Assembly: GCF_004959935.1 (NCBI RefSeq)
Contig: NZ_SMYN01000005.1
Coordinates: 62,001-126,000, forward strand
Length of the DNA stretch: 64,000 nt
Direction of reading: 5' to 3'
Source: Falsirhodobacter xinxiangensis
GTDB taxonomy: Bacteria > Pseudomonadota > Alphaproteobacteria > Rhodobacterales > Rhodobacteraceae
Shown: positions 1,934-5,171 of the stretch, piece after piece
Numbering within the stretch: the stretch's first letter is position 1
Layout of the letters: every line of letters begins with the position of its first letter
Notes under the pieces: model-generated
What the model saw: only the letters and a program-made list of their open reading frames with translations
The model's database searches: none
Told to the model about the DNA's origin: nothing
Position numbers and translations under genes: made by a program

Positions 1934-3616
1934 ATGACACCACCCGAAGATCATGAACACCGGGCAGAAATCGTCGACCGCCTGTATGACGTGGCGCTCG
2001 ACCCGATGCGGTTCGAGGATCTGATCGACGCCTGGGAAGGGCGCGGAAGTGCTGCGGACGACCCCGCGATCGACGCGCATATGTCCCGCGCCCGCGTTTT
2101 TCTTGATCGTTACGATGCGGCGCGCGACGGGGGCGGGGCGCGCGCGGCGCTGGACGCGGTGCATCGCTCTGCCGCGTTTCTGTCCGACGGGGTTTCCGGG
2201 GTCGTCGCCTGCAACCGCGCGATGGAACAGGCCTTCGATATCCGCGAAGGCGCGCCTCTGTCGGATCTGCCCTTCGATCCGCATGACGTGGAATCGCTGT
2301 CCGAGGCGATCCTGCGCGTGACGGGCGGCAAGGCCGAAAAGGTCGCGACCCTGCGGCTTCGGTCGTCGCAGACGGGCAGCCCGGTGATCGTGCGCATCAC
2401 CCCCGTCATCGCCGAGGCTCCGCGCCCGGTCGCGCTGGTGCAATCGACCGAACTCGTCTGGCCCGAAGGGTTCGAGACGCCGGTGCAGGAGGCGTTCGGC
2501 CTGACCTTGGCTGAGGTGGAGATCGTGCGCGGCCTGAGCATGGGCCAGCCCGTCCGCGACATCGCCGAGGCGCGGGGCCGGTCGGTCGATACCGTCCGCA
2601 CGCAGCTTCGCTCGATCCTTGCCAAGACGGAAACGCATTCACAGTTCGAACTGGTGCGTGTCGTCCTTGGGCTGATGGACCTGTCGCACCCGCCCCGGTC
2701 CGAACGGCAGGCCGAAGGGCTGGTCGGGTTGCCCTTTCAGACGCTGCGGATGCCCGACGGGCGACGGTTGGATTGGATCGAATTCGGCGATCCGGGCGGC
2801 CTGCCGCTTTTGTTCATGCATCTGGATTACGGCCTGATCCGCTGGCCCGCATCGGCGGAACGCCGTGCGGCGCAGCGCGGCATCCGGGTGATCGTGCCGG
2901 TGCGTGCGGGCTATGGCGCAAGCGATCTGCATTCCAAGGGAACGGACCATCTGGCCGGTGTCACGCTGGATTACGCCGCGGTTCTGGATCACCTGAACAT
3001 TCGCCGCGTGGCGGTGATCGCGCTGGGCGCCGATCTGCGGTTCGCGATGAACCTGTCGATCCTGCGGCCCGGCATGGTGACCGGCATCCTTGGATGTGCG
3101 GCCCAACTGCCGCTGCGCAGCCGCGCGCAATACGAACGCATGGACAAATGGCAGCGGTTCATCCTCGCCAATGCCCGTTATGCGCCGCGCATCCTGCCAT
3201 TCATGGTGCAGGCGGCGTTTGCGGTCGCGCACAAGATGGGCAAGGACGCTTTCTTTCGCCACATCAACGGCGGCTCGCCCGCCGATGTCGCGCTGATGGA
3301 CCGCCCCGAGGTTCGCGATGCGCTGCTGCTGGGGTCCGAGGTCTGCCTCACCAAGGGCCGGTCGGCGCATGAGGCGTTCACCCGCGAATGTATCGGATCG
3401 GAAAAGGACTGGTCCGCCGTCGTGCGCGCCTGCCGCGTGCCGACGGTGCTGCTTCAGGCCGATCAGGACCCGCAAACCCCGGTGCTGACGGTGCGGGAAC
3501 TTCTGGAGGATTTTACGGATGTTTCGGCCGAGTTTCTGCCGGGGACGGGACAGCTTCTGTTCTTTCAGGAATGGGAAACCGCCCTTCGCCGGGTGGAGCC
3601 GATGCTGCCACGATAG
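1934..3616 (+). CDS. LuxR-type regulator fused to an alpha/beta-hydrolase fold
   Basis: A 560-residue protein in three parts: an N-terminal region (about 1-180) of PAS/GAF-like character, a LuxR-type helix-turn-helix (about 187-245, LTLAEVEIVRGLSMGQPVRDIAE then SVDTVRTQLRSILAKTET), and a C-terminal alpha/beta-hydrolase domain (about 265-560). The HTH is therefore internal, not C-terminal. In the hydrolase part the nucleophile elbow reads G365-A-D367-L-R where catalytic members have GxSxG, and the site of the catalytic histidine reads PGTGQ540. The domain is thus more likely a ligand sensor than an enzyme, although an Asp nucleophile exists in epoxide hydrolases. Start ATG at 1934; divergent from the GST gene. 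The ligand and target genes are unknown. Confidence 0.8.
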   Translation: MTPPEDHEHRAEIVDRLYDVALDPMRFEDLIDAWEGRGSAADDPAIDAHMSRARVFLDRYDAARDGGGARAALDAVHRSAAFLSDGVSGVVACNRAMEQAFDIREGAPLSDLPFDPHDVESLSEAILRVTGGKAEKVATLRLRSSQTGSPVIVRITPVIAEAPRPVALVQSTELVWPEGFETPVQEAFGLTLAEVEIVRGLSMGQPVRDIAEARGRSVDTVRTQLRSILAKTETHSQFELVRVVLGLMDLSHPPRSERQAEGLVGLPFQTLRMPDGRRLDWIEFGDPGGLPLLFMHLDYGLIRWPASAERRAAQRGIRVIVPVRAGYGASDLHSKGTDHLAGVTLDYAAVLDHLNIRRVAVIALGADLRFAMNLSILRPGMVTGILGCAAQLPLRSRAQYERMDKWQRFILANARYAPRILPFMVQAAFAVAHKMGKDAFFRHINGGSPADVALMDRPEVRDALLLGSEVCLTKGRSAHEAFTRECIGSEKDWSAVVRACRVPTVLLQADQDPQTPVLTVRELLEDFTDVSAEFLPGTGQLLFFQEWETALRRVEPMLPR

Positions 3617-3640
3617 ACAAATTTCAGGTTTGTGCGCGCG

Positions 3641-3658
3641 ATACCCCAATTGAGGTAT
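3641..3658. promoter_or_regulatory. 18-bp near-perfect palindrome, possible operator
   Basis: ATACCCCAATTGAGGTAT is a palindrome with a single mismatched pair, 25 bp after the stop of the LuxR-type regulator. Its centre (3649.5) lies about 40 bp before a plausible transcription start near 3690, the spacing at which LuxR-family activators bind class II promoters. Whether the adjacent regulator binds it is inference. It could also form a short RNA hairpin in the 3' untranslated region. Confidence 0.4.
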
Positions 3659-3689
3659 GCGCGTGCTGCGACTGCACACTAAGACGGCG

Positions 3690-3774
3690 GGCATTGTTCG
3701 ATTGTATTAGTGATCTTATTCGTGAGTATCTCGAACGGGGCGAGGGGGAAGACCCCTCGCCCCGTTCTTTTTTT
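3690..3774 (+). ncRNA. candidate small RNA with strong intrinsic terminator
   Basis: Between the regulator stop (3616) and the MATE start (3828) there is no reading frame of note, but about 115 nt after the stop there is an unusually strong terminator. A short AT-richer stretch (3690-3732, unlike the GC-rich genes around it) precedes it. This architecture suits an independent small RNA of roughly 85 nt, or a 3'-UTR-derived one. The 5' end is a guess based on a weak -10-like CACTAA at 3677-3682. No known family was recognised. Confidence 0.4.
3733..3774 (+). terminator. rho-independent terminator
   Basis: Perfect 15-bp stem, GAACGGGGCGAGGGG (3733-3747) with its complement at 3753-3767, loop GAAGA, then seven T (3768-3774). 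It ends the regulator transcript and/or the candidate small RNA and insulates the MATE gene. Confidence 0.9.
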
Positions 3775-3827
3775 GCCCGCGCAAGCCTCGTGTTGCCCAA
3801 AACATCGGCAGGCTGTAACTCGGCATC

Positions 3828-5171
3828 ATGAGACAGAGCTATCCCTCCCACGCCCGCGCGACGCTTGTGCTGGGCCTGCCGCTGATCGGCAGCCATCTGG
3901 CGCAGATGTCGCTGCACGTGGTCGATTCGCTGATGCTGGGCCGTTACGGCGTGCCGCATCTGGCGGCTGTGGTGCTGGGCACGTCGATGTTCTTCGTGAC
4001 GTTCATCCTTGGCTCTGGATTCGCGCAGGCGGTGATGCCGATGGTCGCCTCGGCACTGGGCCGCGGGGACGAGGCGCAGGTGCGGCGCGATGCGCGCATG
4101 GGGCTATGGCTGTCGGTCGGGTTCGGGCTGATCACCTATCCGCTGTTCTGGTTCTCCGGCTCGGTGCTGCTGGCCGCCGGACAGAATGCCGAGGTGGCCG
4201 GGCTGGCGCAGGACTTCCTGCGGATCGCCGGGCTGGGGATGATCCCGGCGCTGCTGGTGATGGTGTTCAAAAGCTATCTCGCCGCGCTGGAGCGCACGCA
4301 GGTGGTGCTGTGGACGACCGTTTCGGCGGTGGGGCTGAACGTCGCCATCGGCTGGCCGCTGATCTTCGGACATTGGGGGCTGCCGGAACTGGGCGTGCGC
4401 GGGGCGGCCATCGCCTCGGTCACGGTGCAGACGGTGAACATGACCGTGCTGGCGATCTATGCCGGGCGGGTGAAGGAACTGCGGCGGTTCCATCTGTATC
4501 AACGGCTGTGGAAACCCGACTGGCAGGCGCTGGCGCAGGTGGCACGGCTGGGCTTTCCCATCGGCGTGACCGGGCTGGCCGAGGGGTCGCTGTTTCAGGT
4601 GACCGCGTTGATGATGGGCTGGATCGGCACGAACGAGCTTGCGGCCCACGGTATCGCGCTGGAGGTGGCGGCGCTGTCGTTCATGATCCATGTGGGATTG
4701 GCCAATGCCGCCACGGTGCGGGTCGCGCGGTTCGCGGGCATGGGCGATTATGCCGCCATGCGCGATGCGGCCAAGACCGCCATCGGCCTGTCGGTCATCG
4801 TCGCGATCTGCATCGTGACGCTGTTCCTGTCGATCCCCGAGCATATCATCGGGCTGTTCCTGTCCGACGGCAAACCCAACACCGCGGCGATCATCGCCTA
4901 TGGCACCACGCTTCTGGCACTGGCGGCGCTGTTCCAGTTCGCGGATGCGATGCAGGCCATCGCGCTGGGCCTGTTGCGCGGGCTGAAGGACACGCGGGTT
5001 CCGATGGTGCTGGCCGCGATCAGCTATTGGCTCGTGGGCGTCCCCGTCGGCTATTCGCTGGCCTTCGTGTTCGGGCTTGGCGGCGTGGGCCTGTGGCTTG
5101 GGCTGGTCAGCGGCCTTGCCGTCGCCGCCAGCCTTCTGATGTTCCGCTTCTGGAGCCGTGCGCCCGGTTGA
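3828..5171 (+). CDS. MATE family efflux transporter
   Basis: A 447-residue inner-membrane protein with about 12 hydrophobic segments arranged as two similar halves, the standard size for NorM/MATE cation-coupled drug and metabolite exporters. Typical features are the opening LGLPLIGSHLAQMSLHVVDS, with a conserved polar residue pattern in TM1-TM2, and the mid-protein repeat beginning LGFPIGVTGLAEGS. The start ATG at 3828 has no strong ribosome site nearby. It follows a strong terminator and so has its own transcription. The rpiA promoter lies right at its 3' end. The exported compound cannot be predicted. Confidence 0.88.
   Translation: MRQSYPSHARATLVLGLPLIGSHLAQMSLHVVDSLMLGRYGVPHLAAVVLGTSMFFVTFILGSGFAQAVMPMVASALGRGDEAQVRRDARMGLWLSVGFGLITYPLFWFSGSVLLAAGQNAEVAGLAQDFLRIAGLGMIPALLVMVFKSYLAALERTQVVLWTTVSAVGLNVAIGWPLIFGHWGLPELGVRGAAIASVTVQTVNMTVLAIYAGRVKELRRFHLYQRLWKPDWQALAQVARLGFPIGVTGLAEGSLFQVTALMMGWIGTNELAAHGIALEVAALSFMIHVGLANAATVRVARFAGMGDYAAMRDAAKTAIGLSVIVAICIVTLFLSIPEHIIGLFLSDGKPNTAAIIAYGTTLLALAALFQFADAMQAIALGLLRGLKDTRVPMVLAAISYWLVGVPVGYSLAFVFGLGGVGLWLGLVSGLAVAASLLMFRFWSRAPG

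Follow-up and report, generated by a model that had tools for sequence, protein, structure and literature searches.

The window analysed here, a stretch of 64,000 nucleotides of Falsirhodobacter xinxiangensis DNA (contig NZ_SMYN01000005.1), contains a gene for a regulator that combines PAS-like, GerE-type helix-turn-helix (HTH) and alpha/beta-hydrolase-like domains; its stop codon is followed by a palindrome, promoter-like elements and an intrinsic terminator (Table 1).

Table 1. Features of the regulator locus, in window coordinates
Feature	Position	Strand	Basis or remark
Regulator gene	1934..3616	+	560 aa; PAS-like / GerE HTH / pseudo-alpha/beta-hydrolase
PAS-like domain, residues 77-175	2162..2458	+	Structure comparison of the model (VIA), Foldseek
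GerE/LuxR-type helix-turn-helix, residues 183-249	2480..2680	+	Pfam GerE; structural likeness to DegU/NarL
Alpha/beta-hydrolase fold, residues 269-558	2738..3607	+	AF2 model; likeness to 9wlv
Gly365 codon, nucleophile position	3026..3028	+	Gly 70/80, Ser 10/80
Asp367 codon, second Gly of GxSxG	3032..3034	+	Asp in 79/80
Asp512 codon, catalytic acid position, retained	3467..3469	+	Asp 79/79
Gln540 codon, catalytic His position	3551..3553	+	Gln 77/79, Tyr 2/79
7-2-7 palindrome TACCCCAATTGAGGTA, proposed operator	3642..3657	+	69/79 homologues at least 11/14; logo
Putative -35 element (ATGCGC)	3657..3662	+	Column conservation
Putative -10 element (TAAGAC)	3680..3685	+	TA at fixed offset
Putative short transcript, ~80 nt	3692..3774	+	Start placed by spacing
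Intrinsic terminator, 15-pair stem and T run	3733..3774	+	Terminator call, hairpin covariation

An initial annotation of this DNA had described a LuxR-type HTH lying in mid-protein and a catalytically altered hydrolase domain C-terminal to it, and both descriptions are borne out. Pfam GerE matches residues 190-243 of the regulator (E=1.3e-4; 22.0 bits, below the Pfam cut-off of 23.5), a GerE match with E<=0.01 is found in all 68 aligned family members, and the modelled HTH (residues 183-248) resembles DegU (7x1k, Z 11.0) and DNA-bound NarL (1je8, Z 10.3) in structure comparisons (VIA). The C-terminal part superimposes on 9wlv with a Z-score of 29.9 (rmsd 2.4, 285 aligned residues; VIA), which identifies the predicted structure as an alpha/beta-hydrolase fold. 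On the N-terminal side of the HTH, residues 77-175 match the PAS domain 3fc7_B (VIA; Z 12.6, rmsd 2.1, 94 aligned), and the best Foldseek matches of residues 1-256 are EL222 (8a5r, E 8.0e-8) and VqmA (6ugl_B, E 1.8e-7). The VqmA structure 7dwm_B spans both the PAS-like domain and the HTH of the regulator (VIA; Z 10.9, 170 aligned) with an rmsd as high as 10.5, on account of which the two domains appear to be arranged otherwise than in VqmA. These matches derive from an AlphaFold2 (AF2) model of the whole regulator with a mean pLDDT of 84.8, in which ten-residue means lie at 88-98 from residue 271 on, apart from two blocks at 80 (431-440 and 471-480), and from a model of residues 1-256 alone with a mean pLDDT of 85.2, much of residues 1-70 lying at 60-70. 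Based on the Foldseek and VIA matches of the separate parts, we take the domain order to be PAS-like, HTH and hydrolase. The regulator thereby differs from the canonical acyl-homoserine-lactone LuxR receptors, in that its N-terminal part is PAS-like and its HTH stands in mid-protein rather than at the C-terminus; the autoinducer-binding domain of those receptors gave no Pfam match in the regulator at E<=1. The order sensor-HTH-sensor, which had been called unusual, stands as such, with the PAS-like domain now placed on the other side of the HTH, but it is a family trait and not peculiar to one protein: 76 full-length homologues (the regulator included) align end to end, which makes the architecture more than a chance observation. 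This full-length set was obtained after dropping L087, L098, L104, L109 and L110 as partial or broken, and 68 of its 76 sequences make up the alignment used for AF2.

The hydrolase domain retains its catalytic acid and has lost the other two members of the triad. The initial annotation had read the nucleophile elbow (GADLR) as carrying Asp instead of Ser, and this detail has to be corrected, as the nucleophile position is Gly365. In phmmer alignments Gly365 pairs with the Ser in the GWSGG motif of 9wlv, with the Asp nucleophile in GFDWG of the epoxide hydrolase 5bov, and with the Ser of the arylesterase 3hi4; a MAFFT alignment that includes distant Ser-retaining fusions leaves the register unchanged, with Gly365 at the nucleophile column; the AF2 model has a strand at 359-364 and then a helix starting at 365; and Ser occurs at column 365 itself in 10 of 80 family members. 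Asp367, a new and almost invariant residue (79/80), lies two positions past the nucleophile position. The Gln noted earlier at the catalytic His position is Q540, a column occupied by Gln in 77 of 79 homologues and by Tyr in the other two; all ten Ser-bearing members have Gln here, and a catalytic His at column 540 was found in none of the 79 readable homologues. Because His is absent from all 79, the ten Ser-bearers included, none of these homologues has a complete Ser-His-Asp set. In terms of what a catalytic alpha/beta hydrolase has, the fold and the acid are present, and the Ser/Cys/Asp nucleophile and the His are absent. At the same time Trp304, Glu309, Arg324, Asp346, Gln399, Arg402, Lys405, Trp406 and Arg408 are invariant (76/76) and Arg303 is nearly so (75/76), and because these residues are fixed or almost fixed we regard the domain as being under selection. 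Retention of the fold, together with different residues that have become fixed, agrees with a role in binding instead of catalysis. The earlier suggestion that the fold was recruited as a sensor is consistent with this loss of the catalytic set and with the retention of the fold and new fixed residues, and survives without its notion of Asp as the replacement for the nucleophile. The hormone- or lactone-like signals proposed along with it would be candidate ligands.

The regulator represents a widespread alphaproteobacterial family. Its nearest named relative found is in Cereibacter flavus (89% identity); full-length homologues of at least 40% identity occur in 12 of 101 genomes searched, its own included, and a match of at least 400 bits is present in 54 of 394 genomes (393 genera) of the bacterial family. 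A scan of named genomes, which relied on two peptide patterns, returned 143 relatives, of which 80 were kept; these are mostly from Rhodobacteraceae, with some records labelled Oricola, Nitratireductor, Phyllobacteriaceae and Mesorhizobium. One record titled Exiguobacterium profundum (L057, CP059262.1) holds a Rhodobacteraceae-type gene of 60% identity, and its organism label looks wrong. In another genome (L191, G373:C1, ~36.2-39.8 kb) the regulator is found in two tandem copies, both with Gly at 365 and Asp at 367. Beyond the family proper, hmmsearch with the family profile recovered a distant set of 39 ORFs, in which the three catalytic columns were judged by eye and the HTH columns are ambiguous in L188 and L189. 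The nucleophile column is occupied by Ser or Asp in 13 of these and by another residue in the remaining 26 (e.g. GHMAG). Ser, acid and His are combined in five of the 39 (L181, L183, L184, L190 and L027), and Asp, acid and His in two LuxR-HTH hydrolase fusions (L175 and L176), the pattern of haloalkane dehalogenases or epoxide hydrolases. Because distant fusions with intact triads exist, the catalytic loss looks derived; on this comparison of sequences, the inactive state of the regulator family looks to have arisen from enzymes fused to an HTH. Among the titles and abstract openings of the matches listed in a literature search, the fusion of a LuxR-type HTH with an alpha/beta hydrolase was undescribed.

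The palindrome behind the gene, which had been named earlier, at 3641-3658, solely as a target for a DNA-binding test, is indeed present and furnishes the strongest evidence: the 7-2-7 site is conserved, its spacing is promoter-like, and in many loci a terminator follows. Sites were scored as the number of matches, of 14, to the NarL-type TACCCCA-NN-TGGGGTA across 79 loci, namely the regulator locus and 78 others (L098, with an internal stop, and L109, with no 3' end, were dropped). A site of at least 11/14 lies 3' of the stop codon in 69 of the 79 loci, scoring at least 12 in 63 of them and 11 in six; in the upstream control windows the best score is at most 10, and upstream of the regulator gene no palindrome was found at the threshold used. 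When downstream regions were shuffled 50 times each, the best score came to 11 for 11 of 30 loci, so that a score of 11 taken alone is weak. All ten further orthologues (L003-L012) have a site scoring 12-14, as do, at 11 or more, nine out of nine loci outside the 80-relative scan, three of them at 11; these nine are the new sequences in an extra set of 20 loci, the other 11 being the same as in the scan. The site logo reads TACC[CG]CA-NN-TGGGGTATG. Ten loci fall below 11/14 (L046, L049, L068, L069, L073, L080, L081, L095, L104 and L107). L069 scores 10, and in L046, L049, L095, L104 and L107 no palindrome was seen. Downstream in L068 and L073 there is a palindrome of another half-site type (TCACCC or CACCC; CACCC..GGGTG), and L080 and L081 have one of the CACCC..GGGTG type ~240 bases upstream. 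Among the distant homologues none of 10 reaches 11/14 downstream; a palindrome of related type stands downstream of L018, and upstream of L014 there is one with a score of 11. Related palindromes were found at 7 of 36 ORFs, compared with 20 of 1440 regions after shuffling. In a sister subfamily whose recognition helix differs (RSEHT-type), five of six members carry a palindrome of the TGACCCA type upstream; L170, also of this subfamily, has no related palindrome. NarL is described as binding inverted heptamers at a spacing of two (PMC4549865), with the heptamer consensus TACYYMT (PMC4886647), and the palindrome TACCCCAATTGAGGTA resembles the engineered NarL site given as TACCCCTAAAGGGGTA (PMC4549865).

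The region past the palindrome has the layout of a promoter for a short transcript. A TA dinucleotide stands at offset 39 from the palindrome start in 39 of 69 loci and one base further in another 19 (58/69 together), and at any other offset between 30 and 51 in at most 11 of 69. With such spacing the centre of the palindrome would fall near -42.5, and a -35-like hexamer would precede the -10 element by 17 bp; a consensus scan of 3560-3860 gave no sigma-70 promoter. Terminator-like hairpins were called in 45 of 69 loci versus 27 of 207 shuffled sequences, with no terminator call in 24 of the 69, and in 42 of these 45 the hairpin lies 90-180 bases past the palindrome start. Of the 12 stem pairs in an alignment covering 30 sequences, 10 have undergone a double change in one sequence or more. 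The terminator excepted, the predicted downstream transcripts hardly align across clades, conservation between clades being poor ahead of the hairpin. Rfam gave no match at cut-off at the regulator locus, with one sub-threshold match over the terminator on the other strand, and across 15 loci it returned a tmRNA in one locus and nothing else. A peptide encoded in the putative transcript was considered and set aside as unlikely, its reading frame being broken by a one-base gap in an 86%-identical relative. Based on these features, a short RNA of roughly 80 nt is likely to be encoded in the 3' flank of the regulator gene. Among 79 regions searched, eight have a conserved small membrane-protein gene directly behind the putative palindrome promoter, as intact copies in L072, L074, L085 and L091 and as decayed copies in L075, L077, L078 and L082. 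This gene is 103-129 codons long and encodes a CGNG-type motif; of three copies compared with Pfam, none had a match above cut-off.

Site and gene also travel together. With a strict site pattern, 10 of the 101 genomes searched have a match, which lies beside the regulator gene in 8. In G001, where the gene is present, the region behind it matches at 86%. The five congeners G002-G006 have no full-length homologue (G002 and G006 have partial matches), and in all five the matches to the two neighbour genes, GST and MATE, are adjacent, with 91-131 bp between them; the 200 bases before the MATE match contain no site, with best scores of 7-8 of 14, and the region from site to terminator has no significant match there (best E 0.15). 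As the gap in G002-G006 is without the site and G001 has both, gene and site are present or absent together. Neighbour names were read from translations, GST and MATE alone being Pfam-checked. A wider regulon was sought across the 101 genomes and none was shown: unlinked strict-pattern sites occur at four places in four genomes (one of them on G000:C20 of the organism's own genome) versus four control-pattern hits in three genomes, and no common theme was seen around the four. In the same genome the 16-mer of the palindrome has no other match with fewer than two mismatches. The place on G000:C20 (16633-16650; L118, L131) is a second site-like palindrome, with one mismatch, on a contig other than that of the regulator.

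In light of these observations, we consider it fairly probable that this PAS-LuxR regulator, with its pseudo-hydrolase receptor, binds the site that follows its own stop codon and governs a short RNA encoded at that place, in the manner of VqmA-VqmR. A possible, though doubtful, alternative accepts the binding and shifts the object of control from a small RNA to the downstream protein gene or to transcription itself, i.e. to the small membrane protein or to interference with a convergent gene. It draws on the four intact and four decayed copies of that gene behind the promoter and on the poor conservation of the transcript sequence between clades; however, 8 of 79 regions is all in which the gene occurs, the downstream neighbours vary (in 13 loci a convergent recN-like gene, elsewhere MATE or others), and the hairpin at its usual distance (42/45) would end most transcripts early. 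That another NarL/LuxR-type protein recognises a palindrome merely lying behind the regulator gene is very unlikely in our estimate: the 7-2-7 site is generic and NarL-like, as this would have it, but it follows the regulator gene in several different neighbourhoods, is missing along with the gene in all five congeners, and differs in its half-site between subfamilies with different recognition helices.

The palindrome could alternatively act in RNA, as a hairpin in which the regulator mRNA ends, a reading to which we give hardly any credence. It does lie just behind the stop codon, and at most one pair is broken in 53 of 69 sites; yet all seven pairs hold (G-U allowed) in no more than 20 of 69, and pair 5/12 is a G-G mismatch in 24 of 69, which argues for a role as DNA rather than RNA, as does the -10-like element following at fixed spacing. 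It is likewise highly improbable that the hydrolase has stayed catalytic by means of Asp367 or some other residue. Asp367 is kept in 79 of 80 members, and Ser468 (74/76) and His479 (65/76) are common; but Asp367 stands two positions past the nucleophile position, the catalytic His is missing in 79 of 79, and no Ser or His of the hydrolase domain is invariant.

Under the favoured reading of a regulator that controls a short RNA, the protein would be a one-component transcription factor in which a PAS-like domain and a hydrolase fold without nucleophile and His flank the GerE HTH, with the hydrolase fold most likely serving as a ligand-binding receptor domain. From the conservation of the site, its linkage to the gene and its likeness to NarL sites, we infer that a dimer would bind the 7-2-7 palindrome right behind its own gene. 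Being positioned at about -42.5 with the -35-like element at its edge, the palindrome would belong to a promoter that reads away from the regulator gene; the spacing is seen in the alignment, the start site and the mode of control are predicted, and activation seems likelier than repression, judging from the position. The product in the group to which the regulator belongs would be the ~80-nt RNA ending at the intrinsic terminator in the 3' flank, and in a few Roseobacter-group genomes the same promoter would face the small membrane-protein gene.

This logic and layout resemble those of VqmA, in which PAS and GerE domains form a receptor that switches on vqmR, a small RNA gene. In that system vqmR adjoins vqmA, an arrangement echoed here by the palindrome at the predicted promoter of a putative short RNA beside the regulator gene; the shared PAS-like and GerE architecture is a likeness by fold only (6ugl_B, Foldseek E 1.8e-7). 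The regulator differs in its additional C-terminal pseudo-hydrolase, and in its half-site, which is GG-N6-CC in PvqmR. VqmA of Vibrio cholerae, described as a PAS and GerE receptor that activates vqmR (PMC8284805), is, by analogy, the closest working counterpart of the regulator and its putative RNA. EL222, the light-activated LOV-HTH protein of Erythrobacter litoralis that gave the best Foldseek match of residues 1-256 (8a5r), is without a hydrolase domain, its solved chains having 191-206 residues. Among hydrolases in signalling, RsbQ has an intact triad, and the plant GID1-type proteins use a non-catalytic hydrolase fold as a hormone receptor, a parallel along the lines of the initial annotation. 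The KAI2-like structure 6azd is among the VIA matches of the hydrolase domain (Z 21.8), with ordinary esterases scoring as high or higher. In RsbQ-RsbP a hydrolase and a PAS domain are described as acting as one sensor, encoded by two adjacent genes, with PPM, histidine kinase or GGDEF outputs (PMC3183031). Unlike that pair, the regulator is a single ORF with an HTH output and neither nucleophile nor His.

More tentatively, we put forward the possibility that the locus is a self-contained Rhodobacteraceae signalling cassette, in which a receptor reads a small molecule through its dead hydrolase, joins this with a PAS signal and has hardly any target besides a dedicated small RNA (or small membrane protein) encoded in the 3' flank of its gene, the whole being gained or lost as a unit and possibly serving cell-cell signalling. 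If the favoured reading is right, the regulator would be a bacterial alpha/beta hydrolase turned receptor inside a transcription factor. Because relatives keep the triad, the conversion of an enzyme into a receptor could be traced and put to the test, and since the operator and target promoter would be known beforehand, a simple reporter screen could be used to search for the ligand. With members in 54 of 394 genomes of the bacterial family, this family of regulators is not a rare one.
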